From assembly GCA_022447495.1 (NCBI GenBank), contig JAKVBH010000018.1, positions 1-64,000 of the forward strand: a stretch of 64,000 bases of DNA, given 5' to 3'. Below are positions 14,962 through 34,500 of this stretch, in pieces. Every line of letters starts with the position of its first letter. Positions within the stretch are counted from its first letter, which is position 1. The notes below the pieces were generated by a model. That model was not told the origin of the DNA, did no database searches, and was given only the letters and a program-made list of their open reading frames with translations. The stretch comes from Marinovum sp. (GTDB taxonomy: Bacteria; Pseudomonadota; Alphaproteobacteria; Rhodobacterales; Rhodobacteraceae). Made by a program: the position numbers and the translations under genes.

Positions 14962-15860
14962 CGCTTCTCGTCACCGGGGCCAGCGGGTTCATTGGCCAAG
15001 CGGTTGTGCAAAAAGCACGCAGGGCGGGCCACGCCGTGATCGCCTTGGTGCGCAGTGCGACCTCTGGCCTTGCGGAATGGGCGCTGGATGAGGGGATCGA
15101 ACGGATGAGTTGTGATCTCGCCTCTCCGAACGCTGCGCTACTGGATGCCCTTGAACGGGCGGACTGCGTGATCCACTGTGCGGCCTCCATGACCGGCAAC
15201 ACCGCAGCGCATGCTCATGACACCAACGCCGCCACCCGGGCGTTGCTTGAGGCGATGCCGGAATCAAGCAAGCTAGTGCATCTCAGCACAATCGCGGTAT
15301 TTGACTTTGCTGCGCTGCCCGACCGGGCCACATTGAATGAGGCAAGCCCGCTTGAACGCGCTCCAGAAGGCCGCGATGCTTATGCCGCGAGCAAACTGGC
15401 GCAAGAGCACACGGTGTACACGATGGCTTTGGCCAAGGATTTCGATCTGACGATTTTGCGTCCGGGAATTGTGTTTGGCCCCGGACGACTTTGGCATGCG
15501 CATTTGGGGCGGATCGTTGGGCCGTTTCTACTTTATGCCGGTCAAGACGGGGAAATGCCCGTGGCCCATGTGTCGTTGACCGCCCGCGCGATCCTTGCCG
15601 CAGCGGAACGCCCCGCCAACGATCCCATCTTGATCCTCGACGATGATCGACCAAGTGTGACCACCTACCTCGCTGGGCTTCGCAAGAAACCGTTGCTGCG
15701 CATTGCGCTTCCCCCGATCCTTTGGGAACGGTTGTTGACACCCCAAACGGCGGCGGCGCGGTTTAAACCGCTCCTGTTCGACAACAGCCGCATGAATCGG
15801 GTTCTTGGCGTCACCCAAGAGGCCTCGTTTGAGGAACTGATGCGGGAGGCACAAGCATGA
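14949..15860 (+). CDS. NAD-dependent epimerase/dehydratase (extended SDR)
   Basis: 303-residue extended short-chain dehydrogenase acting probably on a nucleotide sugar. The nucleotide-binding motif TGASGFIGQAVVQ is at residues about 9-21, the downstream DCVIHCAASMTG is typical, and the catalytic YAASKLAQEH holds the Tyr-x-x-x-Lys. An alternative start at 14958 (MTLLVTG) would remove only three residues. It overlaps its neighbours on both sides (13 bp and 4 bp), so it is translationally coupled within the glycan operon. The reaction (epimerisation, dehydration or reduction) cannot be distinguished by eye. Confidence 0.82.
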   Translation: MGTMTLLVTGASGFIGQAVVQKARRAGHAVIALVRSATSGLAEWALDEGIERMSCDLASPNAALLDALERADCVIHCAASMTGNTAAHAHDTNAATRALLEAMPESSKLVHLSTIAVFDFAALPDRATLNEASPLERAPEGRDAYAASKLAQEHTVYTMALAKDFDLTILRPGIVFGPGRLWHAHLGRIVGPFLLYAGQDGEMPVAHVSLTARAILAAAERPANDPILILDDDRPSVTTYLAGLRKKPLLRIALPPILWERLLTPQTAAARFKPLLFDNSRMNRVLGVTQEASFEELMREAQA

Positions 15861-17062
15861 GCCAACGTATCGCCTATATCACTGGCGAATACCCCCGCGC
15901 CACCGACACGTTTATCCAACGCGAGGTCGCAGCGTTACGCGGGTTAGGTATGACTGTGATGACCTACTCCGTGCGGCGCACCGGCCCCGAACACATTGTC
16001 GGCCCCGAACAGGCGCAGGAGCAGGAGCAGACATTCCATATCCTTGAAGCTGCTAAACGGCCAAAGACATTTTTTGCGGCGTTGAAGCGCGCGCTGGGCA
16101 ATCGCCAACGTCTCTGGTCAGCGGTGAAACTTGCGGCACGCACGGCGCCTCCGGGGCTGCGAGGTGCGCTTTATCAGGTGTTCTATTTCGCTGAAGCCTT
16201 GGTCCTAGCTGACGAGATGGCCACGCAAAACGTAACGCACCTTCATAACCACATCGCCAAGTCCTCTTGCACCGTGGCCATGCTGGCCTCTCAACTCTCG
16301 GGCATCCAATTTTCATTCACCTTGCATGGGCCAGATATCTTCTTTGAACCGATGCATTGGCGGCTGGACGAAAAGGTCGCGCAGGCATCGTTTGTGGCCT
16401 GTATCTCGGACTTTTGCCGATCCCAGGCGATGGTTTTTGCTGACCGCGCGCATTGGGACAAGCTCAAGATCGTGCATTGCGGCGTCGATCCATTGCTCTA
16501 TGCCGAAACGCCACCACCAGGCGGTCAAAAACTCCTTTTTGTGGGACGTCTTGCCGCCGTTAAAGGGGTCGCTGTCCTGCTCGAAGCGCTGAAGCCGCTG
16601 ATCCAAGACCACCCTGATGTCCACCTGTCGCTCATAGGTGACGGGCCCGAACGCAACGGCTTGGAAGAGCAGGCCCGCGCGCTTGGCCTCCAAGATCACG
16701 TCACGTTTCTGGGTTATCGCAACCAAGCCGAAGTGGCCGATGCCTTGGCCGAGCATGATCTCTTTGTGCTTCCGAGTTTTGCAGAGGGCGTCCCCGTGGT
16801 GTTGATGGAAGCCATGGCTGCTGGTCGGCCCGTCCTCACCTCGCGCATCGCGGGTGTGCCTGAGTTGGTCGATGATGGCGTGTCGGGCCTTTTGGTCCCC
16901 CCCGGCAACGTTGATGCACTGGGTGCGGCGTTGTTGGAACTTCTGAAAGACTATGATCTGGAAATCATGGGCAGCGCGGGGCGCGCCAAGGTGGTGGCCG
17001 AGTTTGACGTGGCTCGCGAGGCAGAAAAACTCGCCGGACACATTGAGGCCGTGCGTCCATGA
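15857..17062 (+). CDS. Glycosyltransferase family 4 (colanic-acid type)
   Basis: 401-residue retaining GT-B glycosyltransferase, predicted to add a sugar to a lipid-linked glycan intermediate on the inner membrane face. The N-terminal half carries YITGEYPRATDTFIQREVAAL, a hallmark of exopolysaccharide WcaL/WcaC-like enzymes. The C-terminal Rossmann half has FVGRLAAVKGVAVLLEA, a GDGPER turn and the EX7E-type LPSFAEGVPVVLMEAMAAGRPV donor-binding motif. Start overlaps the epimerase stop by 4 bp (ATGA) and its own stop overlaps the following GT2 gene, so it is central in the operon. Donor sugar unknown. Confidence 0.88.
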   Translation: MSQRIAYITGEYPRATDTFIQREVAALRGLGMTVMTYSVRRTGPEHIVGPEQAQEQEQTFHILEAAKRPKTFFAALKRALGNRQRLWSAVKLAARTAPPGLRGALYQVFYFAEALVLADEMATQNVTHLHNHIAKSSCTVAMLASQLSGIQFSFTLHGPDIFFEPMHWRLDEKVAQASFVACISDFCRSQAMVFADRAHWDKLKIVHCGVDPLLYAETPPPGGQKLLFVGRLAAVKGVAVLLEALKPLIQDHPDVHLSLIGDGPERNGLEEQARALGLQDHVTFLGYRNQAEVADALAEHDLFVLPSFAEGVPVVLMEAMAAGRPVLTSRIAGVPELVDDGVSGLLVPPGNVDALGAALLELLKDYDLEIMGSAGRAKVVAEFDVAREAEKLAGHIEAVRP

Positions 17063-18033
17063 GCTTGCCCGACCTCATTCTTATTGGCCGGAACGAAGGC
17101 GCGCGCTTGCACCGTTGTTTGATTTCTGCCCAGGGCAAAGCCCGCCGCATGGTCTATGTCGACAGTGGATCCGACGATTACTCAGTTGTACTTGCTGCGG
17201 AGAATGGGGCCGAGATCGTCCGCCTGTCAGACGACGCGCCCTTTACCGCCGCACGGGCGCGACACGAAGGGTTCGAATATCTCGAGGCCACGGGAGGCGT
17301 GGCTGAGTTTGTGCAATTCATCGACGGCGATTGCGAGATTGACCAAGACTGGATCGCCACAGCCCAACGCGCCATTTCGGAGCAGACAACTTGGGGTATG
17401 GTCACCGGATGGCGCTCCGAGATGTTTCCGCAAAAATCGCTCTACAATGCGCTTTGCCATGTCGAATGGCGCCGCCCAGCCGGGCAGATATTGGCATGTG
17501 GAGGCGATATGATGGTGCGCGCAGAGGCATATCGCCAGGCTGGTGGGTTTGATGCCCGAGTGATTGCTGCCGAAGACGACGAGTTTTGCTGCCGTCTGCG
17601 CAAGGCAGGTTGGCACCTTGAACGCTTGCCCCACGAGATGACGCGCCACGACGCGGACATGTCTCGCTTTGGCCAATGGTGGAAACGGGCCGAACGCACA
17701 GGCCACGGATTTGAACAGGTTAATGACCTGCACCCCGAGTATTTCCGCCGTGAGCGGCTGCGGATGTGGTTTTTTGGTGCGATTCTTCCGCTTCTTTTTC
17801 TCTGCGGGCTTTTGCTCTTTTGGCCGCTCTCAATCCTCGTGCTCTTGGCCTATGGGCTTTCCTATTGGCGCACGGTCCGCGGGTTAGAGGCGGCTGAAAA
17901 ACTACCACGCGATGAGGCGTTGCGGCATTCCGTGTTGCTCAGCCTATCGAAAATTCCAAATGTTTTAGGGGCCTTGCGGTATCGTCTGCGCAAACAGCGT
18001 GGGGCGGACATGGTCTTGATCGAATACAAGTGA
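17059..18033 (+). CDS. Glycosyltransferase family 2 with C-terminal membrane segments
   Basis: 324-residue GT-A glycosyltransferase. The acceptor-side start LPDLILIGRNEGARL and the DxD-type metal motif FIDGDCEID (about residues 92-100) fit GT2. A second domain carries AAEDDEFCCRLRKAGW, the ED-type catalytic region. Residues about 236-272 are strongly hydrophobic (ILPLLFLCGLLLFW and ILVLLAYGLSYW), indicating membrane anchoring. Coupled by a 4-bp overlap to the GT4 gene and followed 9 bp later by the fused oxidoreductase gene. Confidence 0.85.
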   Translation: MSLPDLILIGRNEGARLHRCLISAQGKARRMVYVDSGSDDYSVVLAAENGAEIVRLSDDAPFTAARARHEGFEYLEATGGVAEFVQFIDGDCEIDQDWIATAQRAISEQTTWGMVTGWRSEMFPQKSLYNALCHVEWRRPAGQILACGGDMMVRAEAYRQAGGFDARVIAAEDDEFCCRLRKAGWHLERLPHEMTRHDADMSRFGQWWKRAERTGHGFEQVNDLHPEYFRRERLRMWFFGAILPLLFLCGLLLFWPLSILVLLAYGLSYWRTVRGLEAAEKLPRDEALRHSVLLSLSKIPNVLGALRYRLRKQRGADMVLIEYK

Positions 18034-18042
18034 GACACCGTC

Positions 18043-20139
18043 ATGAGTGATATCAGAGTAGGCATGATCGGCGCAGGCTACATTGCAGCATGGCATGCCG
18101 ACGCGATCCGAGCGACACCCGGCTCCCGTTTAACCGCCGTGTGTGATCTATCTTCCAGCGCCGCCGAAGGCTTTGCGGCTGGTTACGGCCTCACGCCTTA
18201 CACATCGGTGGAAGCAATGTTGGAGAGCAACACGCTTGACGCAGTCCACATCACCACCCCACCGGGCAGCCACGCCCCACTCGCCATCCAGTGTTTCGAA
18301 GCTGGGCTGCATGCCATGGTCGAAAAACCGGTGGCCGAAAGCGCAGCCGACACACGTCGTATGGCCGAAGCGGCGCGCAAAGCCGGCGTGACCTTTGCGG
18401 CAGGGCATAACTTCCTGGGTATGCCATCCTATGTGCGGCTCAAGGAAATGGTGGACACTGGCCAACTGGGTCGGATTGTCAGCGCAGAAGTGCATTGGCA
18501 TCTCCCGCTCGCGCCCTTGCGCTCTGGGCCATACGGTCTCTGGCTTCTGCGCGAGCCTCGTAATCTTATCCTTGAACTAGGGCCTCACTTGGTGGCCTTT
18601 GCCCAGGACTTGTTTGGCCCCGTTGAGATGTTGGGAGCAACTTCCACGCATCCGGTCGAACTGCCCGGCATGGGCAAACGCGATCAGGTCTATCGCTTCA
18701 CCGCGCGGGCGGGCGAGACCGAGGTAACCTTCATGGTCTCGCTTGTGGAAGTGATTGATGACCGCAGCGTGGTCGTCCGTGGGTCCTCCGGTATTGCGCG
18801 TCTCGACTACGCCAATGACGCGCTTACCACGCGGTTTGACAACACCTCTGACATTGTTCTCAATCCGCTGCGCGCCTCGCTCAGCCAAGCTTGGGGCCAT
18901 ATGCGCGAAGGCATCGGCAACGCTGTGACACAGGTAGGCTCGCTCAACCGGAAAGGGCCCTACGCCCTCTCCTTCCGAGGCAGCTGTGGCGCATTCTATC
19001 ACGCCGTCCAAAAGGGCACGGCACTCGACCCGCGCTTTGACGGCAGTGCTGCTTTGGGCGTCATGGAAAGCCTTGAGGCCGCGATCGGGTACTTGCCAAA
19101 AGCGAAGGCGCCCAAGCTTCCCGCCAAAACGCGGGAAACGACGCCCAAGGCGGTTGTCATCGGCGGCACTGGCTTCATCGGTCGCCACCTCACGCGTGGT
19201 CTGGTAGCTCAAGGTCAAGACGTGCGCGTGCTCTCTCGTGGCCGTCACGGCCCTTTTGGCGACTTGCCCAATGAGGTTGAAACCGTTGGTGTCTCGCTTT
19301 CCGATCGCGCGGCTTTGGTCGAGGCGTTTAAGGATGTGGACGTCGTCTACAACCTTGCCAAATCCCTAGATGACACCTGGGAAGCAGCGCTCAAAAACGA
19401 TGTGGGGGTGACCGAAACCATTGCTGAGGCTTGTATGGACGCCGGTGTCAAAAGGTTGGTCTATACTGGCACGATAGCGTCCTTTGACATGTCTCAACGG
19501 TTTGGAAGGATCACCGAAGCCACTGGATTTCCCGAGGACCTCTCGGACCGCAACCTTTATGCGCGGTCCAAAGCCGAATGTGAAAAGCGGCTGATGACAA
19601 TGTATGAGGACCGCGGATTGCCCGTGACCATTGCACGCCCTGGTATTGTGATCGGCCCAGGTGGACCACTGCAGCATTGGGGCATCGGCCGCTGGCACGG
19701 TGCCGGCGCAGTCAAGCTCTGGGGTGATGGTAACAACGTGCTGCCATTTGTGCTCATCGATGATGTGGTCGACGGGCTTATCGCAATGGGAAATCACCCT
19801 GACGCCGTGGGCGAGAGCTTCAACCTTGTAGGCGATCGCATGATGACGGCGCGCCAATACTTCAAGGCGATCGAGGATCAACTGGGCGCTCGGATCACCG
19901 TGACATCGGGGTCATTGCACATGCTTTGGATCATGGATGCGATCAAATACCCGCTCAAACGGTATGGCCTGGGCCGTAAAGGCGCGGTGCGCGCATCACT
20001 CAAAGATTGGCAATCACGGGCACATTTGACCCCCTTCGACAACGCCAAACCCAAGGATATGTTGGGCTGGGCACCGGAAACAGATCAGACAGAAGTGATC
20101 CGAAAGGGCATCATAGAGGCCGGATTGTTCGGATTTTGA
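18043..20139 (+). CDS. Fusion protein: Gfo/Idh/MocA oxidoreductase plus NAD-dependent epimerase
   Basis: 698-residue two-domain protein. Residues 1 to about 350 form a Gfo/Idh/MocA oxidoreductase (VGMIGAGYIAAWHADAIR, then MVEKPVAESAADTRR with the catalytic Lys). Residues about 365-698 form an extended SDR with TGFIGRHLTRGL at the nucleotide site and the catalytic YARSKAECEKR. The two domains correspond to the two separate enzymes encoded at the start of the same operon (13840 and 14949), so one pair appears fused and one not. Such bifunctional proteins may carry out oxidation followed by epimerisation or reduction of one nucleotide sugar. Last gene of the run; a perfect 8-bp hairpin (20130-20151) spans its stop. 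Confidence 0.85.
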   Translation: MSDIRVGMIGAGYIAAWHADAIRATPGSRLTAVCDLSSSAAEGFAAGYGLTPYTSVEAMLESNTLDAVHITTPPGSHAPLAIQCFEAGLHAMVEKPVAESAADTRRMAEAARKAGVTFAAGHNFLGMPSYVRLKEMVDTGQLGRIVSAEVHWHLPLAPLRSGPYGLWLLREPRNLILELGPHLVAFAQDLFGPVEMLGATSTHPVELPGMGKRDQVYRFTARAGETEVTFMVSLVEVIDDRSVVVRGSSGIARLDYANDALTTRFDNTSDIVLNPLRASLSQAWGHMREGIGNAVTQVGSLNRKGPYALSFRGSCGAFYHAVQKGTALDPRFDGSAALGVMESLEAAIGYLPKAKAPKLPAKTRETTPKAVVIGGTGFIGRHLTRGLVAQGQDVRVLSRGRHGPFGDLPNEVETVGVSLSDRAALVEAFKDVDVVYNLAKSLDDTWEAALKNDVGVTETIAEACMDAGVKRLVYTGTIASFDMSQRFGRITEATGFPEDLSDRNLYARSKAECEKRLMTMYEDRGLPVTIARPGIVIGPGGPLQHWGIGRWHGAGAVKLWGDGNNVLPFVLIDDVVDGLIAMGNHPDAVGESFNLVGDRMMTARQYFKAIEDQLGARITVTSGSLHMLWIMDAIKYPLKRYGLGRKGAVRASLKDWQSRAHLTPFDNAKPKDMLGWAPETDQTEVIRKGIIEAGLFGF

Positions 20140-20296: not shown

Positions 20297-21370
20297 ATGA
20301 TGAATAATAAGCGATGGATCAAACGTAGCACTCCGATGTCGCCAATGGCGCCTTTGAAAAAGCGCGTTAAACCCGCTGCCACAGCAAAAGCGGAGGAAAC
20401 GACGGTGGAGCGTTCCCAGAACAGGCAAGCGCCAGCGCCCACAGCAAAAGCGAAACCAACGCAGAAGGTGACAAAGGTGGTCATTAAGAAAGCCCGCCCA
20501 ACCGCCCCAGCACGTATGGACACTCCGAAACCGAAATCCACTATGCCAGAACCTCAAGCACAGGCAGCGCTCGACGCCGTCCCGCAAGAACCGCAAGAGT
20601 TGTCGCCGATGATTCAAGATGGTTTGGTCGCCAGGCCCGAGGCTGACAACCTTTGGGACTATCTGGACACCTTCACAGTGAATGAGCGTCACCTTGAATC
20701 AAATCGTATCGTAACCGCCACCCGGCGCGACCCGTGCCATGCGGCGTTCGACGTATTGCGGACTAAGATATTGCAAACACTTCGAGACAACGGTTGGAGT
20801 CGCGTGGCCATCACATCCCCAACCGCAAATTGTGGCAAAACGTTTATGTCCGTGAATCTGGCGCTGTCCTTTTCGCGTCAACTAAACTGTCGAACTATGC
20901 TTCTTGATTTTGACATGCGCCATCCCTCAGTGGCCAAGGTGCTTGGCATATCAGAGCCCGGTAGCATGGGAGAATTACTACGCAATGAGGCAGAGGCCGA
21001 AGACGTGCTTCTTCGTCCCGGCAGAAACGACCTCAAAATCGGAGCGAATTTGGCCGTTGGTGCCAACGGCCGCCGTGAAGACTATGCGTCGGAGCTTCTC
21101 CAACAACCCATGACTTCGGACATCCTCGATGACCTCGAAGAGGAACTAGAACCTGATGTCATGCTCTTCGATATGCCTCCTGTGCTTGTGAACGATGACG
21201 TTCTCGCGGCGCGGCCGCTCTATGATGCGGTTCTTCTTGTGGTGGGCGGTGGCATCACCAAACCCCAGGAGGTGCGATTGGTCGAGCAGCGTTTAGGCAC
21301 AGAAACGCCGCTGCTTGGTATTGTATTGAATCGATCTGAAGGCGTTTCGTCGAAAGTCTATAGCTACTGA
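20297..21370 (+). CDS. BY-kinase/CpsD-like ATPase for polysaccharide export or chain-length control
   Basis: 357-residue cytoplasmic P-loop protein of the bacterial tyrosine kinase/CpsD group. Residues 1-100 are a Lys/Ala/Pro-rich linker with no clear fold. The ATPase domain follows: Walker A TSPTANCGKTFMSVNLAL (about 173-190), Walker A' MLLDFDMRHPSV and Walker B DVMLFDMPPVLVND. The C-terminus has only two tyrosines (VYSY) instead of the tyrosine cluster of classical BY-kinases, so autophosphorylation may be limited. It is separate from, and convergent with, the Wzz-type membrane protein, the split arrangement also known for CpsC/CpsD. Start ATG 20297 follows GGGGGCGG. Confidence 0.82.
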   Translation: MMNNKRWIKRSTPMSPMAPLKKRVKPAATAKAEETTVERSQNRQAPAPTAKAKPTQKVTKVVIKKARPTAPARMDTPKPKSTMPEPQAQAALDAVPQEPQELSPMIQDGLVARPEADNLWDYLDTFTVNERHLESNRIVTATRRDPCHAAFDVLRTKILQTLRDNGWSRVAITSPTANCGKTFMSVNLALSFSRQLNCRTMLLDFDMRHPSVAKVLGISEPGSMGELLRNEAEAEDVLLRPGRNDLKIGANLAVGANGRREDYASELLQQPMTSDILDDLEEELEPDVMLFDMPPVLVNDDVLAARPLYDAVLLVVGGGITKPQEVRLVEQRLGTETPLLGIVLNRSEGVSSKVYSY

Positions 21371-21462: not shown

Positions 21463-22767
21463 TTAAAGCCGGGCGTTGTGGCGATCGCCCATCTTAAAAA
21501 GGCCTAAGCCCTCGACCCTATCTCGCATGATCGTCCAAAGGGCAGGCCCAGCGGCGAGCACCGAACCAATCACTGCAAGTTTTGCGACATTGCGCATCCG
21601 ACGTTCACCCCCGGTGGACACATGTGGGATCGCGATGACGGCTTGCACACCCAAGGCACGCTCAAGCTGCGCTGAATTGCGGATCGCGGGGTTTAGGAAT
21701 TCCAAGCCGAGCGCGACACCAAGGGCGAGAATAACGGAGGCCAAACCGCCCATAATCGCGGTTTTCTTGCGACTACGGGACACGGGGTATTCAGGAATAA
21801 GCGCGGTTTCGAGAACCTCGAAACGTTCAGTTTGCTGACGCGATTGCAGAGTGTTGGCGGTCTCGGCTTCAGCCAAACGGCGCGTCACCACGGAATATTC
21901 ATCCTGAAGGCGTGTCAAAGACCGGTTCAACAGAGACAACTCTTGCTCCACTTGAGGACCGTTCACGATGGCGGCTTCAGCTGTGGCAACGCGGTCACGA
22001 ATTGCAGTGCGTTGAGCGGTAAGAAGCGCAATTTCATCTTCTACATTGGAACGTGCGCGGCGCGTGTTGCTCTGGAGTTCAAGAATCTGTTGCTCGATCT
22101 CCAAATCCGCCTCGACAAAGGTTGATATCTGGGTGCGCTGCGCAGCCACAGCTGCGGGCAGGCTGGCGGAATTTATCTGTTTGAAAGTGGCAAGCTCTTG
22201 TTCAAGCGCTGTGATGTCACGCGCATACCGCGCTTCCTCTGCCAAGAAGAAGGCCAGCGTTTCTTGCGCGGCGAGCGCCTGACGCGAGGTGCCCTGATCC
22301 ACGATCCGTGCCAACAACTCGTTGGCGACATCGGCGGCCTGTTGAGGATCCCCCATGGTCACCGTAATGATCAAACCGGTCGGGTTCGCGTTCGGCGCCC
22401 ATGGTTGTGACGCATCCGTGATTGCCGTGATCCGCGCCGATTCGCGCAATTGCGTCACTTTTAGGCCCAACGACAGATCCGAGTCCGCGAAGAGGTTATA
22501 GTCTTCGATAATCTCAATGAGGTTGTCGCGCGCCATCATGCGCTGTTCAATCAGTTGAAGTTTGTGCGCGGCATCAGTGCGACCAGTGCGCTGATCCACG
22601 ATTTGCGCGTCTTCCAACTGAACTAAAGCATTGGTTTCATATATTTTCGGCTGCTTCAGTGCAAAGTGTACAGACAGCAGGCAGCCGACAACCGTCAGAA
22701 GCGCCACGAGCGGAGCACGCCGGCGCAACACGTTGATAATATCGGCAATTGATCCCAACTGGTTCAT
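21463..22767 (-). CDS. Wzz-type polysaccharide chain-length determinant protein
   Basis: 434-residue inner-membrane protein of the Wzz/polysaccharide co-polymerase family. It has an N-terminal membrane helix (APLVALLTVVGCLLSVHF, residues about 18-35). A long periplasmic region rich in coiled-coil heptads follows (for example ARYARDITALEQELATFKQ). A second membrane helix (MGGLASVILALGVALGLEFL) comes next, and a further hydrophobic stretch close to the C-terminus. It has no attached kinase domain. Start ATG 22767 has GGAG upstream; a longer frame to 22860 would place an unlikely Arg-rich leader before the helix. It should work with the adjacent CpsD-like ATPase in polymer length control. Confidence 0.83.
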   Translation of the reverse strand: MNQLGSIADIINVLRRRAPLVALLTVVGCLLSVHFALKQPKIYETNALVQLEDAQIVDQRTGRTDAAHKLQLIEQRMMARDNLIEIIEDYNLFADSDLSLGLKVTQLRESARITAITDASQPWAPNANPTGLIITVTMGDPQQAADVANELLARIVDQGTSRQALAAQETLAFFLAEEARYARDITALEQELATFKQINSASLPAAVAAQRTQISTFVEADLEIEQQILELQSNTRRARSNVEDEIALLTAQRTAIRDRVATAEAAIVNGPQVEQELSLLNRSLTRLQDEYSVVTRRLAEAETANTLQSRQQTERFEVLETALIPEYPVSRSRKKTAIMGGLASVILALGVALGLEFLNPAIRNSAQLERALGVQAVIAIPHVSTGGERRMRNVAKLAVIGSVLAAGPALWTIMRDRVEGLGLFKMGDRHNARL

Positions 22768-22838
22768 TATTGGTGCACTCCACAAACGCCCCCGCCTGCG
22801 CGGACCTACGTCCCTCGCAGATCCGTCAAGACCGTAGC

Positions 22839-22876
22839 AAATTGCGCCACATTTCGCCACAATTTTTGCGCAATTT
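22839..22876 (-). promoter_or_regulatory. Inverted and direct repeats upstream of wzz
   Basis: AAATTGCGC (22839-22847) and GCGCAATTT (22868-22876) form perfect 9-bp arms 20 bp apart. Between them are two copies of a CGCCACA(A)TTT block (22846-22855 and 22857-22867). The element lies 72 bp upstream of the wzz start codon at 22767 and is a plausible operator. Confidence 0.4.
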
Positions 22877-22987: not shown

Positions 22988-25900
22988 TTAATGCATGCGA
23001 CGCGCGCGCATTTCGCGACGCCGCGCGATTGCGTTTTTGCGGCGATCAGCCCGCGTATTACCAAGACCGGCCACCTCTTGGGTTGTTGGAGCCGGTGCAT
23101 CGTTCGCAGGCGTGCCAGACGCAAGGCCTGGATTCACTTGCACAATCCGCGCCACAAGACCTGAGAGTGTTGGGTAGCCAAAAATGTCAGCAATGCTCAA
23201 ACGATCGGCCCCAAGTTTGGAGCGCAACGCGCGGTGTACTTGCACCGCCAAAAGCGAATGCCCGCCCAGATCAAAAAAACTATCGTGAGGTTGAATATCT
23301 GAAACGCTCAGCGCGTTTGACCAGACCTTTGCGACGGCTTCGGTCATGTCGAGAGACGGCGCCGCCGCAGGTTTTGCCACAACAACTTTACGTGGTTTGA
23401 CCGCAACTTGTGGCAGCGGTTTAGGTGCAGTTGCGACAGGGGTCAGGTTAGTTTTGATCTCCTTAGGATCAGGCAAGGCTTTGCGATCTATCTTTTGGTT
23501 CGGCGTCAGCGGAAAAGCATCCAGCACAACGACTTGGTTTGGCACCATGTAGCCGGGCAAATGCGTCGCCAAAGCCTGACGCATTGCACCCGGTTGGGCA
23601 TCGCCAAGAATGTACCCAACCAGTTGGTCGCGAGCTCGCACGACGCAAACGGCCTCCGTGACACCGGGCTGAGCCATGAGAACGGCTTCGATCTCACCCA
23701 TTTCGATGCGGTGTCCACGCAGTTTGACTTGGCCATCGGCCCGTCCAATATACGCCAGCGCGCCATCAGATTGCCAACGGACCAGATCGCCCGTGCGATA
23801 GAGATGTCCTTTGCCAAACGGATTTTCGATGAACCGTTCAGCCGTCAGGTCGTCGCGTTTCCAATAGCCTCGCGTGACACCCAAGCCGCCAATCAAAAGC
23901 TCACCCTCAACGCCAACCGGAACGGGCACACCTGCCTCGTCCACGACGTAAACTTCGGTGTTCGCAATTGGTGTGCCAATGGGTGCGATGGCCTGATCGG
24001 AGCGCGCAGCAGCCGTGGTGGACCAAATTGTGGTTTCGGTCGGCCCATACATATTCTCGACCGATGCATTGGTAACGTCAGCCAGTTGGGCCACCAAACC
24101 GCCTGGCAATGCTTCGCCGCCCAAAAGGATTTGGCGCAGGTTCCCAAGAGCCTTGGCGGTCTCAGGTTCCCCCAACAACAGGCGTGCCATCGACGGTGTA
24201 CACTGCATGTGGCTCACGCCATGACGACGGATCTGCGCGGCGATAGAGCGGTCCTGGGGATCAATCTCCACGCCTGCATTCGCAGCGGCTACGACTTTGG
24301 CCAGCGGTCGCAGACCGTCGAGCACGGTGTCTCGGGCAATGCCATAATCGATAAGGCAGGCCACCTCGGTCACGCCGATATTCTTAAGGTCTTCGACCCG
24401 TGCCAAAGCATCTTCGACGGTTCCAAAGAGGCCGCTGTCGGTGAAATACCGTTCGAATGCAAACTCCAGGATCGCGTCCAATTCGTCTTCGCTCAGGCCT
24501 TCAAGATCGAGTTCAAATGCGTTCTTCGCCCCTTCGGGTCGTTTGAACGCGGGGAAGGCCCAGGCGTATTGCTTGATCAACGCCGCCGCTGCGCGCAAGT
24601 AATCCTTCATTGGCTCGCGCGCGACCTCGCGGGCTGCGTCACGACTATCCGCCAGGAAGGTGTGAAGCATCAGAGTGACTTGGAAATCTGTCGGATCATG
24701 CCCCGCATCGCGGAGCGCGGCGTGGTAGATTTTGATCTTTTGCGCGACCTCATCCACCGATTGGCCCAGCAAATGGGTGAGGACGTTGGCCCCCATGCGA
24801 CCCGCATCCTCCCAGGTTTTCGGATTACCCGCCGTTGTGACCCAAACGGGTAGCTCCTTGGACACCGGACGCGGCTGCGTCACCACGGCGTGCATCTTGC
24901 CGTCTTGACGTGGGAAGCTGACTTCCTCGCCCCGCCACAACGCGCGCAACTCTTCGATCTGACGCAACATGGCGGCTTTGTTTTCTGGTGGCGTATTCTC
25001 AGGACGCAGAACGAAATCGTCCGGCTGCCACCCGCTGGCAATCGCCATACCAGCCCGCCCGCCAGTCAGATTGTCGATCACTGACCATTCCTCAGCAATA
25101 CGGGCGGTGTGGTGAAGCGGGGCGACACAGGACCCGGCGCGCACGCCAATGTTCTGTGTAACCGCGGCCACGGCGGCGCCGGTCACCGAGGGGTTTGGAT
25201 AGGGTCCCCCGAAGGCGTGGAAATGCCGCTCGGGTGTCCAAACCGCGCAAAAACCGTTCTTGTCGGCGAACTTCGCACCTTCCAGGAGGAGTGTATATTT
25301 GTCCCGGCCTACGCCGTCGTCATTGCCCCAATAGAAAAGGCTAAAGGCCATCTCTTGATCGGACACTGCCATGGTCTGCGCCGCTTCGAGACGGTCTTGT
25401 TCGGAGACAAGAACCACACGCGCGCCGCGCGACAGCGTGTAGAAAATCTCGAGCACCGATATGTCGAAGCTCAGTGAGGTGAGCGCGAGCCAACAATCCG
25501 ATGGGCCCGTCGGCGTTCGCGCATCCATGCCAGCAAAGAAATTGATGACGTTGCGGTGTTCGACCATCACCCCTTTGGGGCGCCCGGTGGAGCCAGAAGT
25601 GAAGATCACATAGGCGAGGTCTTCGGGCTTTGCGATGTTTTCCAGCGGCGCGGTGTCGGCGTTTTCGACGCGCGGATCACCATCGAGCAAGAGCATGTCG
25701 ACATCCATGTCCGCCATGGAATCACGGGTCGCTGCCTCGCAAAGGATCACCTGCGCAGCGCTGTCTTCGGCAAAAATCGCCAGCCGGTCGCGCGGGTAAG
25801 ACGGGTCCATCGGAACGTAGGCCGCACCCGCTTTGTGGATCGCCAAAGCGCCGACAACGAGATGCGTCGATCTTGCCGTGCAAAGGCCTACGAGGTCTCC

Positions 25901-27553
25901 CGGTCGCACACCCATGGCGATCAAAGCCCGCGCAGCGGCGTTGGCCCGGGCGTCAAGCGCGGCATAGCTAAGTTTGGTATCCCCCACGATGATCGCAGTG
26001 GCATCCGGCTGCGCGGTCACTTTTGTGGCAAAAGCGGTGACCATGGTTTGGGTCGCGTCGATCTGGGTTTCGGTTTGATTCCAACCAGTGATCACCAAAG
26101 CGCGCTCGGCCTCGCCCATGCTGGGCAATTCACGGCCGTGTGCTTCCGCCTCCGCCATGGCAATAAGCCGCTCAGACAACAGCACCGCCATCTCCGCACT
26201 GATGCGCGCGCTGTCAGTGTAGAGCCCATCAGGCGTAAGGGTCAGCGCCGCACCGGGTAGCGCTGCATCTTCGAGAGAAACCCCAATGTCGGGCTGCGTC
26301 AACTCGCGGAGATCGGGGAACCGTTGTAGTAAGTCCAGCGCAAATCCAGGAAGCGCCAACACATCATCCAAAACATCTTGGGCACCAAAAGGCACCCAAC
26401 CCATGGCAACAGGCCCTTGGCCGGAATGCAAAAGCGCGACATCGCAGGCATCCATTCCACAGGACGTTTGGGCGAAATGCACCGCCACTTTGACCAGACT
26501 CTCAGACGTCAATTGCGGCAGCGCAAGCTTGGTGTGCTCGACCGTACCCTGGGCTTTAACCCCAGGCCAAATTGCTGGTTTCATGCCGCGTAGACGGGAC
26601 AGCCAATGGGTTTTCGCGCGACCCAGAACCTGCGCCTCGGCACGCCAATCGGCGGCGTCCGCGTCTGAGATCAGGGGGAGTGTACCCGCCTCGACGAGCT
26701 CTGGTTCTTGCAAAAGCGGGGTCAAAAGCCCAGTGAGCTTGAGCGCGCCATCGGCAAAACCAACAATGAGCGCATCCGTACCGACGCGTTTGAAAGCTCC
26801 AGGTGCGAGAACCTCCGAACACGGCTGTGCACCACGCACCATCCAAAAGGCATCCCCAGTCCAAAGTTTAGCCATGCCAATCGGGTTCGCGTAATCGCCG
26901 TGATCCAGTGCCTGCACCAAGCGCAGCGCCACGTCGCGACCGCGATCCACGCGCAGGGCGCCAGCGGCGTCAGGGCGTTCAAATTTGCCGACATAGGACC
27001 GCTTGCTCATGTCTTGGACTACTGCATTGGGCAGACCCGATTCGAGTGCGCTGATTACATCTCCAAAGCTATCAATAGCGGCGGCATAGCATTTGGTGTT
27101 GAGCGAGAGCGCCGTATCCCCATCGACCACGTCAAAGCTGCGTTGAACGATGATATCGCCCCCGTCGACCTCGGGTGTGATGCGATGCCAGGTGATGCCA
27201 TGGCGTGTCTCACCGGCAATCCGCGCCCAAACCGGCGCATTCAGCCCAGCATAGCGCGGCAAAAGCGCATCGTGGAAGTTTACCGCACCGCCCTTTGCGT
27301 GTTCAATCAGCACCTCTGGCAGGAGGCGCAAGTTCGCAATTGAGAGCACCCAATCGATCTCAAGATCCGCCACGCGCGATGCCAAATCTGTACCAGGGGC
27401 TTCGACGCGCAAACCTTCGGCACGCGCCCAATCGGCCAAGTCCGCCTTACCGGTCGACAAAGCCGCCACGCGATGCCCGGCTTCACGCCATTGCGCCAAG
27501 CACTCGCGGGTCAGGGATTCATCGCCGATGATGAGTGCGCTAAGCTGGGTCAT
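22988..27553 (-). CDS. NRPS-like protein: formyltransferase - split adenylation domain with luciferase-like monooxygenase - PCP
   Basis: 1521 residues. Domains: FMT-like formyltransferase (1 to about 300; NFHDALLPRYAG with N92 and H94, GGDII with D133). Residues about 310-490 resemble the C-terminal part of a condensation domain but lack HHxxxDG. Adenylation core A1-A4 (about 500-715; TSGSTGRPKG, SFDISVLEIF). A luciferase-like FMN monooxygenase is inserted between A4 and A5 (about 730-1090; TPERHFHAFGG, ASGWQPDDFVLRPEN), as in the MupA/Atu3671 group. A5-A10 follow (NMYGPTETTIW, YRTGDLVRW, NQKIDRKALP), then PCP (DLGGHSLLAV, S433 of the final third, residue 1433). The Arg-rich tail lacks a release domain. 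Pocket residues read D-I-L-Q-L-G-M-I-W-K, one change from the glycine code. Start 27553 has GGAG upstream and overlaps the GT2 stop by 14 bp. Confidence 0.88.
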   Translation of the reverse strand: MTQLSALIIGDESLTRECLAQWREAGHRVAALSTGKADLADWARAEGLRVEAPGTDLASRVADLEIDWVLSIANLRLLPEVLIEHAKGGAVNFHDALLPRYAGLNAPVWARIAGETRHGITWHRITPEVDGGDIIVQRSFDVVDGDTALSLNTKCYAAAIDSFGDVISALESGLPNAVVQDMSKRSYVGKFERPDAAGALRVDRGRDVALRLVQALDHGDYANPIGMAKLWTGDAFWMVRGAQPCSEVLAPGAFKRVGTDALIVGFADGALKLTGLLTPLLQEPELVEAGTLPLISDADAADWRAEAQVLGRAKTHWLSRLRGMKPAIWPGVKAQGTVEHTKLALPQLTSESLVKVAVHFAQTSCGMDACDVALLHSGQGPVAMGWVPFGAQDVLDDVLALPGFALDLLQRFPDLRELTQPDIGVSLEDAALPGAALTLTPDGLYTDSARISAEMAVLLSERLIAMAEAEAHGRELPSMGEAERALVITGWNQTETQIDATQTMVTAFATKVTAQPDATAIIVGDTKLSYAALDARANAAARALIAMGVRPGDLVGLCTARSTHLVVGALAIHKAGAAYVPMDPSYPRDRLAIFAEDSAAQVILCEAATRDSMADMDVDMLLLDGDPRVENADTAPLENIAKPEDLAYVIFTSGSTGRPKGVMVEHRNVINFFAGMDARTPTGPSDCWLALTSLSFDISVLEIFYTLSRGARVVLVSEQDRLEAAQTMAVSDQEMAFSLFYWGNDDGVGRDKYTLLLEGAKFADKNGFCAVWTPERHFHAFGGPYPNPSVTGAAVAAVTQNIGVRAGSCVAPLHHTARIAEEWSVIDNLTGGRAGMAIASGWQPDDFVLRPENTPPENKAAMLRQIEELRALWRGEEVSFPRQDGKMHAVVTQPRPVSKELPVWVTTAGNPKTWEDAGRMGANVLTHLLGQSVDEVAQKIKIYHAALRDAGHDPTDFQVTLMLHTFLADSRDAAREVAREPMKDYLRAAAALIKQYAWAFPAFKRPEGAKNAFELDLEGLSEDELDAILEFAFERYFTDSGLFGTVEDALARVEDLKNIGVTEVACLIDYGIARDTVLDGLRPLAKVVAAANAGVEIDPQDRSIAAQIRRHGVSHMQCTPSMARLLLGEPETAKALGNLRQILLGGEALPGGLVAQLADVTNASVENMYGPTETTIWSTTAAARSDQAIAPIGTPIANTEVYVVDEAGVPVPVGVEGELLIGGLGVTRGYWKRDDLTAERFIENPFGKGHLYRTGDLVRWQSDGALAYIGRADGQVKLRGHRIEMGEIEAVLMAQPGVTEAVCVVRARDQLVGYILGDAQPGAMRQALATHLPGYMVPNQVVVLDAFPLTPNQKIDRKALPDPKEIKTNLTPVATAPKPLPQVAVKPRKVVVAKPAAAPSLDMTEAVAKVWSNALSVSDIQPHDSFFDLGGHSLLAVQVHRALRSKLGADRLSIADIFGYPTLSGLVARIVQVNPGLASGTPANDAPAPTTQEVAGLGNTRADRRKNAIARRREMRARRMH

Positions 27554-28553
27554 GGGTTTTATCTCCGAGGGGGCGAATTTGGCGCGCCTTGACTTTCCAA
27601 GGCCACAAGGCTCGGAAATCGTGGGCAATCAAATCGCGTAGAAAATGCTTGGGGTCGGCGGGAGGTCGGCTTTGGATCGCCGCGCGCAGCCGCCAGATCA
27701 GCCCCCCCAAGACATGCGCCTTGGTGGCCAAAACGGCGGTAAGCCAACCATGGTTTTTGGTGAAGTAATGTGACCGGCTGTCGAGCCAGAAGCCGGGGAC
27801 ACGGTCCCAGGTCTTCATACCCGTCGATACGCTGCCAATATGGGCGACACGGCTTTGCGGGATGTACCATGTTGGCCACCCGGCGCGCGCAGCGCGCAAA
27901 CACAGATCGGTCTCTTCAAAGTAAAGAAAGAAGGTCTCGTCAAAGAGGCCAATCTCTTCAAGCACCTCGCGGCGCATCATCAGGCTCGCCCCGGCCAGCC
28001 AATCGACCCGTTCGGGACGGATCGGCAATTGGTCCAAAGGCATTCGATGGTGGGCAAGCAAACGTGTGATTGGCCCGGTGCGTGCGGCGCCTTCAAACTC
28101 GCTGAGTACAGAAGGAAACCGGAACGCGGTCACATGGCCGTCGCCGTCTTCGCCATGTATGTGCGAGCCGACGAAACCCACTTTGGGGTTTTGCACCAAA
28201 TGGTCGTAGAGCACTTCAATGGCATCGGGCGCTGGGAAGGCATCAGAGTTCAACAAGTAGTAGAAATCCGGTGCGCTGCCGTCGGAGAGCCCGGCGCGCA
28301 TACCCACATTGTTGCCTGCGCCATAGCCGCCATTCCAGCCGGACTCGATCACACGGACGTTGTCCCAACCGCGTTCTGTCACGTGTGCTGAGAGAGCCTC
28401 AAACGAACCATCGCCGCTATCGTTGTCGACAATCACCATCTCAGCAGGCAACCGACCCAACGCGTGCATGGCACTATCGGCGGCGCGCGCCGTCATCTCT
28501 GCGGTGCGATAGTTGAGTAAGACAGCAAGGAGGCGCGGCGCAGTCATGGTCAT
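27540..28553 (-). CDS. Glycosyltransferase family 2 (rhamnosyltransferase-like)
   Basis: 337-residue GT2 of the WbbL/RfbN-like type, predicted to transfer a deoxysugar such as rhamnose. Motifs are VLLNYRTAEMT and VIVDNDSGDGS at the N-terminus, YYLLNSDAFP (DxD equivalent), GASLMMRREVLEEIGLFDE and the FLYFEETDLCLRA catalytic region. It sits between the PKS (stop 28554, adjacent to this start) and the NRPS-like gene (14-bp overlap), so all three are almost certainly one transcript. That placement argues that a sugar is attached to the polyketide/peptide product or its carrier; the acceptor is not known. An internal ATG at 28547 is an alternative start. Confidence 0.88.
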   Translation of the reverse strand: MTMTAPRLLAVLLNYRTAEMTARAADSAMHALGRLPAEMVIVDNDSGDGSFEALSAHVTERGWDNVRVIESGWNGGYGAGNNVGMRAGLSDGSAPDFYYLLNSDAFPAPDAIEVLYDHLVQNPKVGFVGSHIHGEDGDGHVTAFRFPSVLSEFEGAARTGPITRLLAHHRMPLDQLPIRPERVDWLAGASLMMRREVLEEIGLFDETFFLYFEETDLCLRAARAGWPTWYIPQSRVAHIGSVSTGMKTWDRVPGFWLDSRSHYFTKNHGWLTAVLATKAHVLGGLIWRLRAAIQSRPPADPKHFLRDLIAHDFRALWPWKVKARQIRPLGDKTHDPA

Positions 28554-31500
28554 TTACTCCGCTGCCTTTGAGAGCTCTTCATCGAACAGCTCCTCTGGTT
28601 CTGCCTCTTCGATCGCCCGGCGCATAGAGGCCGCGAGAACTCGGACGTGTGGCTCAAGCACCATGGAATCGTGGTCACCAGGAACCTCTTCCACCGCGAT
28701 GCCGGGCACGAATTGGCTCCAGTCATTGTCGTGGAAGAGATACGCGCGCTCACTGCTCACCAACTGACCGTCGGAGACGGTCCAGTGGCCCACAAGCGGT
28801 GGTCGGAAGAGATGCAAATTGCCCTGCCACGGACGTACTTGGTACGCGTTTACGGCCGCGATAAAGGCGGCTTCGATCTCTGCATTGTGAAAGGCGTGAT
28901 CGTCGCCAGTGTTCTCCACCGTGCCTTGGCGTTTTGCGATTTCCCAAGCGATGCGGTTCTTGAGCCATTTGAACGGATAGGCGGGCCCCTTGCGGCGCAG
29001 CTCTTGGAGTTGGATCAATATTCGGTCGCGGCGCTCCAGCGGGCGGCGCACGGGAAGAGGCGTATCCAGCAGGATCAAGATACCCACGTGTTGGCCTGCG
29101 GCTTCAAGTTGCCGCGCGATCTCAAAGGCCGTGATGCCACCGCCAGAGAACCCACCCAGGTAGTAGGGGCCCTCAGGCTGCACCGCACGCATCTCAAAAA
29201 TGTAGTCGCGGGCCGCCTCTTCGATGCTCCGATGCGGGTCTTCGCCGCCATAAAGGCCACGAGCTTGCAGGCCGAAGAAGGGCCGATCCGCGCCCAGCAA
29301 ATGGGCCAGATGACGCAGGTTAAGGACATTGCCGAACATGCCCGCGACCAAGAAGAACGGCGCTTGCGAGCCGCCCTCGCCTTCGTGCATCGGCACCAGA
29401 TGGCGGAAGCGTGGCTTGGCCTCTGCCATGGGCGCCTCAGAGGCGACGGTTGCCGTTTGATCGATTCCTGTGCGCTCCACGATCATCGCAGCACAGGTGC
29501 GGATCGTCGGCGCTTCAAAGAGGACCGATATCGGGAAGTCAACACGATAGGTCTTTTTGACCATCGCAAAGAGCCGCACCGCAATGAGCGAGTGCCCCCC
29601 AAGGTCAAAGAAGCTGTCGTCAATCCCCACTTGGGTCACGCCCAAAAGCTCGGACCAGAACCCGGCAAGGGTCTGTTCGATCTCCGTTTCGGGCACGGCA
29701 TAGTCACTGTCGAGGTCGGGTCTTTCAAAGGCGGCGCCAAGCTGGGTCGCCTCTTCCTGAGCCGCTGCCTGGGCGATCAAGTCCTCTATGGGTAGTGAGG
29801 AGACCACGACTTGTGACTCGGGTCTCGCCAGTGCGCGCAAGAATGCATCGGACCCTTCATGGGCGAGAATGCCTTGGGTCAGATTGTGACGCAGGCGTAG
29901 CTCCGCAGGCGAAAGCGGCGCGGCGGGGCCTGCATCGTCAAAGGTCAGCTCGGCCTCGCTGAGCGGTGGCATGGCACCGAAACTGCCCGCGAAATCAAGG
30001 CGTTTGATCTCAAACCCGCTGATCTCAACACAGACGGCACCGTCGGGGTCAAAGACCGTAATGTCGAACTTGGCTGTGGCGCTCGTGGCGGTGTTTTCAG
30101 CCGCGTTACGGACCCAAGAGATCGCTTCCTCAGGTAACATTTGGTGCACATCGATGCGCCCGTAGCGCATGGGAACCCACAGCGTTGCGCCATCGTAACC
30201 CTTGATCAACTCCATGCCCCAACCGGTGGCAATGTCCATCAGAGCGGGGTGTAGAGCGTAACCTGCGGCGAGATCGCCCGTGGCATGTTGTGGCAGTCGT
30301 ACACGGGCCAGGCCTTCACCCTCACCCAGGACTTTGCCGCGCAGCACGGACCAGCGTGGCCCAAAGGCCAAGTGACCTTCCTGCGCAGAGCGGATTGGGA
30401 TGTCGCTCTTGGATAACGCAGCCATGCGCGCCGAGACGGTCTGCAAATCAATCTGCGCCGTTTTGGCCTTGGCGTTGAGCAGAACCAGCGCCTCGGCGTG
30501 CAATTGCCAGGCTTTGCGACCCTCGAACATAATCGCAGAACGGACCGCAACATCATAGCCGCGTTTGGACCGGGCCAGTGTGACGCGCACGTCTTTTGCC
30601 GCCGAGACCTGCAATGGGCGCAAGAAGCTCAGATCACGAACAGAGAAGGCGCCCGTTTCACCTTGAGCGCGCAACGCCTGAGCGATCAGTTCGATATACC
30701 CGGTACCTGGGAGGATCGCGGCATTGTCATGACGCGTACGGTGTTCATTGAGCACCCAAAGCGCATCGACATCCCAAGTCGCCTCAAAGGCGCGGGTGTT
30801 GTCGCGATCAAAGGTCGCCACGTCGAGCAACGGCACATCCGTGGGTGTACGCGGTTGTTCTGGCATATCGCCATCTCGGGCGGCCACGCTTTCTGCGGCC
30901 ATGCCAACGTCGGACCAGATGCCCCAGTTGAGCGCGACCACGCGGGTCTCGCTGCCCACGCGGGACGTGGCATAGGCATTGAGGTATTCGTTGGCGGCGA
31001 CGTAGTCGACCTGACCTGCAGGCGCAGTGACCGTGGAGGTCGAAGAAAAGAGAACCATCCAATCAAGCACACCATCGGGGAAGAGCGCATCGAGGACTTG
31101 GAGGCCATGGATCTTGGGTGTGAAGACGTCTTCGATCTCAGCTGGGCGTTTGGCCATGAGCGGGCCATCGTTGATAACGCCAGCCGCATGCACAACGCCG
31201 TGGATACCGTCCGCTGCTTGGCGGAAGTCTTTGGTGGCCTTTTCCATGGCGGGCTGGTTACAGACATCTGCCTGAACGACATGCACAGCAGCACCCTGGG
31301 CTTCGAGCTGTTGCACAGCGGCGATGCGCCGCGAGATGCGCTCTAGCGGCCCGAAGTCAGCGATATGACGATCCCAAGCGCTGCGCTCGGGCAATGCGCT
31401 ACGGCTCACCAGACCGATATGTTTGGCACCTTCTGCAACGAGACGTTCGGCAACGCTTAGGCCGATACCACCGAACCCCCCGGTGACAAGATAAGCGCCG

Positions 31501-34500
31501 CCATCGCGGACTTTGGGCGCCTCCGCCTCGGCTAGTGGCATGGTCCGTACAGTGCGTTCGTAGCGTTTAGGTCCACGCAGCGCAGCTTCATAAGCGCGCG
31601 GTGGCGACAATAGGTCTTCGAGCAACGCATCGGTCAGCGCGGACAGATCACGAGGCGAAGACTTCCCAAAGAACGACTTGACCGGTTGTTCTGGCAAGGT
31701 GACGTCGATGGCGGCAACCGAGACCGAGGGAAGCTCCCGCGGGATCACCCGCAGGGGGCCAGAAAGCGTCGACTTCTGCGGGTACGTCAGTTCTTCAGAA
31801 CGCGCACGCACTGCACCGTTGGTCACGGCGGTGATGTGCACATCGCTGACGCCCTCAGTCTCCAAGGCTTGTGCGAGGAAGAGCAGCGCGTAGAAGCCCT
31901 GTTCCTGAACACGGTGGAAGAAGGAGGAACCGGGACGATGGGATTCATCTTTGGTCACCAACCAGAAATGGGCCACGCGACCAGGCACGATGCCCCGCGA
32001 AAGTAAGTCTTGGATCAGGAGGTCATAGCCCTCTCGCCCGCGCTCTGGCGAGAGGATGTAGTCGGTCTCATCGAGTCGTGAAAAGGTGTCGCCTGGACGG
32101 ATGCGCACAACGGTATGGCCGCCATTGGCCAGGCGATCCCCAAGCCCACGCGCGAGCCCGGCATCGTCTTCAAAGATCAGCCATGTCTCGGGCGTACTAT
32201 CGGTGAGATTATCCGCCACATCGATTTCGCAAGGCGCGACTTGCGGTACCCAAGCAATGCGCGCGCCCCAGTCTTCGATTTCATCAGAGCGGGTGAGGAA
32301 ACTCTCCTCGGCGCTCTCGCGGGCTTGGCCAGGCTCGATGAAATAGGTCTGATGTTGGAAGGCATAGGTCGGCAAAGGCAGGCGACGACGGGGGATGTCG
32401 CTCCAGATTTGCTCCCAATCGATCTCCACGCCCAGCGCGTTGAGGCGCCCGAGTGTCAGAAGGAACTGTGCGTCGTCTTCGATCTCATCTTGCGCATGGC
32501 GCAGGGTGCCGAGGACTTGGTTTGCTGGCACAGAGGGGTGCATACGCGCCAGCGACGTGAGTGCTTTGCCTGGGCCAACCTCCAGGAAAACACGAACAGG
32601 GGTTTCGGCAAGCGTGGCGATGCCATCCGCAAAACGGACCATACCGCGCAGGTGATCCACCCAGTAGTCAGGATCGCAGGCCTCTGCGTCGGTGAGCATT
32701 TTGCCAGAGCGGTTGGAGATCACCGGGATTTGCGGCGCATGCAGCGACATGGAACGCAAATGCGTGCGGAAATCATCCAATATCGGTTCCAGTAGGTGAG
32801 AATGCGCAGCGATGTCGATGGCGATGCGCTGGCATTCGATCTCGCGCTGGGCGAGTTCGTTTTCAAGCGCGCCGAGCGCCGCTTTGGGACCGGAAGCGAC
32901 AGAGAGGCCCGGGGCGTTTTCGGCACCGATATCGATGTCATCAGGCAAGAGCGGGCGCAGTTCTTTGGCGGACAAGGCTACAGAGAGCATTCCGCCAGGG
33001 GCCACGGTATCGAACAGCGTACCGCGCTTGTGCACGAGACCGATGCAATCCTCAAAGGACATGACACCTGCAACTGCTGCGGCTGCGTTTTGTCCCATGG
33101 AGTGACCGATCAAAGCGGCAGGTTCGACACCCCAAGACATCCAAAGTTGCGCCAAGGCGTATTCCACGATCATGGTGAGCGGGAGTTGCAGCGAGGGTTG
33201 GGTGAGGCGTTTGTCAGCCTTGGCGTGGTCCTCTAGCGCGGGCAGCCACAGCGCGCGCATGTCTTCTGATGTGAGCGTGGCGAGGTGCTCGAGTCCGCGG
33301 TCCATCCATTCCGCAAAGACCGGCTCAGTCTCGTAGAGGTCCCGCGCCATGCCTGCATATTGTGCACCGCCACCAGGGAACATGAAGACAACCTCGGGGT
33401 CCTCCTCAAGGGCGGCATGTGTGAAGACGCGGCGCGGATCGTTCGAAGCCAAACGCTCGGCGGCTTCGGCCGCCGTTCCCGCCACGGTGACCAGGCGATG
33501 TTCGAAATGGCGGCGCCCTTCTTCGAGTGTGAAGGAGACATCAGCCAAGTTGATGTCAGGATTGGCGCGCAGGTATTCTGCAAGGCGCGCGGCATTGGTC
33601 TCCATCGCGGCCTTGCTGCGGCCCGTAACTGTTATGATGTGATACGGCCAATCAGAGGTTTCGCTTTCAGCGAATTTAGGTGCTTCTTCGAGCACGATAT
33701 GAGCATTTGTTCCGCCCACACCAAGGGAATTCACGCCGGCGCGGCGCGGTGCACCGTGGCGTGGCCATGGTGTCAACGCGGCATTCACCGCGAAGGGGGA
33801 GGTTTCGAAATCAATCGACGGGTTTGGCGCTTCATAGCCCAGCGAAGGCGGCATCGCCTCGTGATAGAGCGCAAGGCTGGCTTTAGCGAGCGAGGCCACA
33901 CCAGCCGCTGTATCGAGATGGCCAATGTTGGTTTTGACCGATCCAATCCGGCAATAGTTCGTGGCCTCCGTGCTTTCGCGAAACGCCTGAGTAAGCGCTG
34001 CCACTTCGATGGGATCGCCCAGATACGTTCCAGTGCCGTGGCATTCAACATATCCCACGCTGTCCGCGGTTACACCCGAGACTGCCAAAGCCTCGGAAAT
34101 GGCGGCGGATTGCCCTTCGACAGAGGGGGCCAGGTAGCCGGCCTTTTGCGCGCCGTCATTGTTGACGGCAGAGCCTTTTATAACGGCCCAAATGTGATCG
34201 CCGTCCAAAAGTGCGTCTTCGAGGCGGCGCAGAACCACGACGCCCACGCCAGAGCCAAACACCGTGCCTTGAGCGCGATGGTCAAAGGCGTGGCAGGCGC
34301 CGTCGGGCGAGAGGATCTCGTTTTCCTTATAGAGATAGCCGCGCGCATGGGGCATTTCGATGGTCACGCCACCGGCCAAAGCCATGTCACACTCACCATT
34401 GAGGAGCGCCTGCGCGGCATAGTGCGTGGCCACCAGCGAGGTTGAACAGGCGGTTTGCAAGTTGATTGAGGGCCCTTGCAGGTTCAGGATGTGGCTTAGC

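Follow-up and report, generated by a model that had tools for sequence, protein, structure and literature searches.

What acyl unit is made by a protein in which a formyltransferase, an adenylation (A) domain split by a luciferase-like monooxygenase (LLM) and a carrier domain (PCP) are joined in one chain, and where does that unit go? The question is raised by a gene in the window, the 64,000-nucleotide stretch of Marinovum sp. contig JAKVBH010000018.1 (assembly GCA_022447495.1) that was analysed here. The features on which the analysis rests are collected in Table 1.

Table 1. Features of the window around the NRPS gene (aa, residue numbers in the encoded NRPS protein)
Feature	Positions	Strand	Evidence
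NRPS protein, 1521 aa, probable loading module	22988..27553	-	formyltransferase, putative vestigial C lobe, LLM-split A domain, PCP, basic tail
Formyltransferase, both Fmt subdomains, aa 1-290	26684..27553	-	triad N92/H94/D130; ArnA/Fmt profile match
Putative vestigial C-like segment, aa 330-500	26054..26566	-	McyB/Txo C-domain ends in profile search; without HHxxxDG
A domain part 1, up to A4, aa 505-732	25358..26041	-	AMP-binding 509-727
LLM FMN monooxygenase insert, aa 737-1087	24293..25345	-	TIGR04020, 481 bits vs cut-off 244
A domain part 2, before A5 to A10, aa 1091-1365	23459..24283	-	TIGR01733 second stretch 1099-1302; AMP-binding_C 1287-1354
Carrier domain (PCP), LGGHS with S1433	23144..23338	-	PF00550 E 1.1e-11
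Basic C-terminal tail, ARRRxMRAxR	22991..23062	-	kept in most close relatives
Family 2 glycosyltransferase between PKS and NRPS	27540..28553	-	domain match; 14 bp overlap with NRPS start
Type I PKS, 2159 aa, KS-AT-KR-DH-ACP-TE	28554..35033	-	domain matches; NRPS partner
PKS thioesterase (TE) domain (release)	28614..29351	-	PF00975 E 1.8e-20; GFSGGG, LLDTP, GDHDSMV
Exopolysaccharide (EPS) genes: WecG/TagA glycosyltransferase, Gfo/Idh/MocA, epimerase, GT4, GT2, Gfo/Idh-epimerase fusion	12796..20139		
Polysaccharide tyrosine autokinase	20297..21370	+	TIGR03018 E 4e-26, below cut-off
Polysaccharide chain-length determinant, XrtA type	21463..22860	-	TIGR03007 E 4e-32, below cut-off
Family 2 glycosyltransferase of EPS region	35258..36091	-	
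EpsE-type family 4 glycosyltransferase	36208..37470	+	NF041876 585 bits vs cut-off 400

Layout of the NRPS protein

The gene is a single open frame that starts with ATG at 27553 and stops at 22988-22990; a longer frame from a TTG start is possible but unnecessary. Pfam profiles matched it in the order Formyl_trans_N (residues 55-156, E 1.3e-19), AMP-binding in two stretches (E 2.2e-89) on either side of Bac_luciferase (747-1062, E 5.6e-44), AMP-binding_C (1287-1354) and PP-binding (1406-1470). Frame and matches together bear out the initial annotation of a formyltransferase fused to a monooxygenase-split A domain. An end-to-end alignment with 16 homologues of 41-56% identity revealed the same layout throughout, a degree of sharing in the sequences that is far beyond chance. 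The protein itself carries no TE or R domain. Its basic C-terminal tail is a candidate docking element to the PKS described below. The catalytic motifs are conserved, and a dead enzyme was rejected on that ground.

The N-terminal domain matched ArnA/Fmt profiles at an E-value of about 1e-31, with its N, H and D residues aligned with the Fmt/ArnA catalytic triad. An AlphaFold model of residues 1-515 was confident (pLDDT 89), and in a Foldseek search of this model ArnA (E 1.5e-24) and Fmt were matched over about 300 residues, and both Fmt subdomains are therefore present. The triad is intact in the window protein, so that the dead formyltransferase site that would have spoken against the initial annotation was not seen, and also in 75 of the 78 NRPS relatives. 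At one of the three exceptions, a Deinococcus locus (L020), a 304-aa formyltransferase-like frame lies just upstream.

Between formyltransferase and A domain lies a segment that is poorly conserved among relatives (20-34% identity). A Pfam scan of residues 331-515 found no reliable domain and a single Condensation match (E 0.26), and the match of this region to McyB/Txo C-domain ends is partly common with the start of A domains. HHxxxDG is absent from residues 1-720, in agreement with the initial annotation, which had seen no active-looking condensation domain. Because of the partly A-shared profile match and the missing motif we label the segment a vestigial C domain, and tentatively regard it, from the sequence, as the end of a former condensation domain. 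The A domain and PCP thus stand in one protein with an N-terminal formyltransferase and without an active upstream C domain.

The A-domain pocket was read by the motif anchors FDxS, xQCTPS, LGGE, YGPTE and NxKxDRK. It comprises D697, I698, L701, Q1117, L1143, G1145, M1168, I1176, W1177 and K1354, all ten residues at the positions reported initially. The resulting DILQLGMIWK is one change from the glycine code, which we take to be DILQLG(L/M)(I/V)WK. Among the NRPS relatives DILQxGMIWK is nearly invariant, the position of L1143 being variable. On these residues and their conservation, the A domain is predicted to activate glycine, as the initial annotation had proposed.

The LLM insert lies between A4 (LSFDISVLEIF, 694-704) and A5 (NMYGPTE, 1167-1173) and scored above the curated cut-off of TIGR04020, the MupA/Atu3671 family. 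It also matched the solved PuwE domain (6ket) with an E-value of 6.6e-96. The domain is complete in sequence. The model of the A domain with its insert was of moderate quality (pLDDT 72, pTM 0.56), and no conclusion was drawn from it. An insertion at the same place in a glycine A domain is known from the myxothiazol and melithiazol synthetases (PMC10204066, PMC11342130), so the parallel drawn in the initial annotation was correct.

Relation to known systems and to a partner PKS

LgrA of linear gramicidin has the same formyltransferase-A-PCP order as the window NRPS, and LgrA in the PDB was matched in sequence, with the match in the formyltransferase covering only its first subdomain. Unlike the window protein, LgrA uses valine and lacks an LLM. 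A formyltransferase-A(Gly)-PCP module that starts a PKS has been proposed for conglobatin CongA, and PCP formylation has been tested for linear gramicidin (PMC4504003). The CongA and oxazolomycin loading modules resemble the window system in their N-terminal formyltransferase, glycine A domain and PCP, followed by a PKS that receives an N-formylglycyl starter (PMC4504003). They differ in that no monooxygenase insert is described, in their larger PKS, and in the formation of an oxazole with a CongE/OzmP-type enzyme (PMC4504003), for which we noticed no candidate at the window locus.

The glycine A domains of MtaG (myxothiazol) and MelG (melithiazol) share the A4-A5 monooxygenase with the window NRPS (PMC10204066, PMC11342130). 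Their module is terminal and yields an amide, whereas the window NRPS would start a chain: it has an N-terminal formyltransferase, no working C domain and a partner PKS. SolF of solanimycin likewise combines a glycine A domain with a flavin monooxygenase and gives alpha-hydroxyglycine, but its insert lies between A8 and A9 of an elongation module and the formyltransferase is absent (PMC10204066). The PuwE LLM belongs to the same subfamily, with a 2-hydroxy carrier-bound chain as its proposed product, and is found next to the aminotransferase of a PKS-NRPS rather than within an A domain (PMC4219810). A literature search, with subscription papers outside its scope and hence a weak absence, returned no account or product of this domain combination or of the NRPS-PKS pair. 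Each piece of the system has precedent; the present analysis chiefly adds that the NRPS has a conserved partner, the PKS, and lies among polysaccharide genes.

The PKS, the interposed glycosyltransferase and the NRPS apparently form one operon in which the first two genes lie directly upstream of the NRPS gene; the glycosyltransferase ATG adjoins the PKS stop codon (TAAATG), and in most Rhodobacterales loci a glycosyltransferase is kept at that position. The initial annotation had stated that there was no release domain. This holds for the NRPS protein itself and not for the system, as the adjacent PKS carries ACP and TE; a reading of the NRPS as an orphan module that lacks release was rejected for the same reason. 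Neither this partner nor the EPS genes around it had been noticed in the initial annotation. Most of 67 related PKSs retain the catalytic motifs of KS, AT, KR, ACP and TE. The DH motif of the window PKS departs from HxxxGxxxxP, with the histidine and a later aspartate present at altered spacing, and its AT motif is AAHS, neither HAFH nor YASH. The KR of this PKS stands ahead of the DH, opposite to the usual arrangement.

Long homologues of NRPS and PKS occurred in the same 14 of 37 same-family genomes, a co-occurrence of 14/14 with a chance of about 1.6e-10 if the genomes were independent, which they are not. One further genome (G022) contained lower-identity fragments of both. Among 61 genome-contig loci with at least 9 kb of flank on both sides, picked by similarity to the NRPS, mostly from Rhodobacterales and phylogenetically non-independent, a PKS KS of the partner kind lay near the NRPS in 59, one of them doubtful (L100, 43% identity, distant). 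Over these 59 loci NRPS and PKS distances were correlated with r = 0.959, a value reached in 0 of 5000 permutations. At six loci of other groups (L066, L077, L082, L085, L090 and L091) the PKS gene follows directly on the NRPS gene, as would be expected of an NRPS that loads the PKS. The conserved partner, with its ACP and TE, marks the system as a hybrid NRPS-PKS line.

A PPTase gene adjoins the NRPS gene in most relatives. It is absent from the window, and no PF01648-type PPTase was found in the organism's own assembly (G000), which is 78% complete; the absence there is probably a matter of missing sequence. In one near-complete genome (G009:C3:516544-528498) both homologues are broken into several frames, by decay of the copy or by sequencing errors. 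An Aliiroseovarius plasmid locus (L019, 15004-28743) encodes a 41% identical formyltransferase-A[LLM]-PCP protein followed by a larger PKS-NRPS protein of 3082 aa, and this pair lies near exosortase XrtD and VPLPA-CTERM genes.

The polysaccharide setting

Polysaccharide genes span positions 12796-37470 of the window, so that the pair is located within an EPS cluster. Two or more EPS markers other than glycosyltransferases were present at 39 of the 61 loci compared to 0 of 20 control stretches (p = 1e-7, uncorrected for kinship), the controls being arbitrary 20-kb stretches from four genomes and somewhat shorter than the loci. The link is not universal. Annotated plasmids of Ruegeria, Paracoccus and Shinella have the same EPS setting, with an annotated PPTase in Paracoccus and Shinella. 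In Alphaproteobacteria the pair usually lies in EPS clusters.

Outside Alphaproteobacteria the setting was mixed. A Salinivenus MAG and two Deltaproteobacterium MAGs carried glycan or exosortase genes close to the pair, and no polysaccharide gene was found among those neighbours within 10 kb that were scanned in Acanthopleuribacter, Ramlibacter, Rhodopirellula and a Chloroflexi MAG. This indicates that NRPS and PKS together make up the core unit, most often housed in an EPS cluster; the pair can stand alone outside such clusters.

Other genes of the window are recorded here as side observations. The plus-strand frame at 18043-20139 encodes a 698-aa fusion of a Gfo/Idh/MocA oxidoreductase and an NAD-dependent epimerase, and a protein of similar size annotated as an epimerase is encoded in the Shinella cluster (L017, 34276-36339). 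Encoded separately at 58784-61618 on the plus strand is an adenylation-carrier-thioester reductase protein of 944 aa, which probably turns a carrier-bound acid into an aldehyde; a short-chain-dehydrogenase-like frame overlaps its end. A 1018-aa protein with RTX calcium-binding repeats is encoded at 39628-42684 on the minus strand, and the 696-aa product of 46479-48569 (plus strand) had no Pfam or NCBIfam match.

Proposed pathway and alternatives

The comparisons establish, at the level of sequence, the layout of the NRPS, its intact catalytic motifs, its association with a single PKS lineage and, in Alphaproteobacteria, its usual place among polysaccharide genes. With moderate confidence we read the NRPS as the loading module of a two-protein hybrid line that makes an N-formyl-(alpha-hydroxy)glycyl unit, extends it by one malonate, processes it by KR and DH and releases it by TE. 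We call it a loading module because it has no working C domain, begins with a formyltransferase and lies in the gene order described. The A domain would activate glycine and load it onto the PCP. With formyl-tetrahydrofolate as donor, the N-terminal domain would formylate the amino group, as LgrA does and as CongA is proposed to do. Using reduced FMN and oxygen, the LLM may then place a hydroxyl group on the alpha carbon of the glycine or formylglycine bound to the carrier. Such flavin monooxygenases have been assigned two roles: alpha-hydroxylation of substrates bound to a carrier in the case of solanimycin, puwainaphycin and palmerolide, and shortening of the chain by a Baeyer-Villiger reaction in the case of calyculin and mandelalide. 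Given these roles, the loaded unit is by analogy most likely N-formyl-alpha-hydroxyglycyl or N-formylglycyl.

We infer the steps after loading, the product and its attachment to a glycan. The N-formyl-(alpha-hydroxy)glycyl unit would be handed to the PKS KS and receive one malonyl unit, the KR would reduce and the DH dehydrate the extended unit, and the TE would free a small, unsaturated C4 amino-acid-derived acid, for instance 4-formamido-4-hydroxybut-2-enoic acid or a cyclised form. At EPS clusters the acyl group would most likely be joined to the polysaccharide or its lipid-linked precursor, in a reaction for which the TE or a transferase encoded nearby is a possible catalyst; this is the weakest step. 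The LLM could also act on the nitrogen or on a later intermediate, and the PKS could act more than once.

The chemistry at the loaded glycine admits other outcomes. N-formyl-N-hydroxy groups occur in siderophores, and this precedent, together with the free amine that the substrate offers before formylation, speaks for the LLM acting on nitrogen to give N-formyl-N-hydroxyglycine, an iron-binding hydroxamate. The initial annotation favoured this product, which has less precedent than hydroxylation of the alpha carbon, the role given to the LLM subfamily in the literature; TIGR04020-type and related enzymes are there assigned carbon oxidation, either alpha-hydroxylation or Baeyer-Villiger, and no siderophore receptor was seen among the scanned neighbours in the window. 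We regard N-hydroxylation as quite improbable. Another outcome would be for alpha-hydroxylation to be followed by collapse of the carbinolamide and loss of formamide, leaving a glyoxylyl thioester for the PKS to extend. The insert at the same position in myxothiazol and melithiazol leads to such a cleavage, with a two-carbon glyoxylyl unit left (PMC10204066, PMC11342130), but alpha-hydroxyglycine is retained in solanimycin and skyllamycin (PMC10204066), and with formamide as waste the conserved formyltransferase would have no clear purpose. We therefore hold the glyoxylyl outcome unlikely and keep the N-formyl-(alpha-hydroxy)glycyl unit as the preferred reading.

Two further alternatives concern the polysaccharide setting. 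The formyltransferase might act on a nucleotide-linked amino sugar in the manner of ArnA or WbkC and be merely fused to the NRPS, since its fold most resembles those of ArnA, Fmt and WbkC and its gene belongs to a glycan cluster. At 75 of 78 loci, some of them with no glycan genes detected nearby, it is fused to A and PCP, which argues against this, as does the PCP-bound amino acid that is the substrate of LgrA and the proposed substrate of CongA. We consider an amino-sugar substrate very unlikely. The pair might instead make a secreted metabolite, the polysaccharide genes being merely frequent neighbours. We consider this rather unlikely. In its favour, polysaccharide genes were undetected beside the pair in L077, L081, L082 and L091, and the Aliiroseovarius relative precedes a larger PKS-NRPS, while the overlapping, interleaved glycosyltransferase gene and the strong EPS linkage in Alphaproteobacteria stand on the other side.

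The two proteins, with their simple predicted substrates, form a small system directly amenable to study in vitro. Only tentatively do we suggest that the acyl group made by this widespread NRPS-PKS pair, oxidised and derived from N-formylglycine, becomes attached to bacterial EPS. If the product is carried on the glycan, an assembly-line enzyme would decorate the surface coat of bacteria that are common in the sea and in soil.
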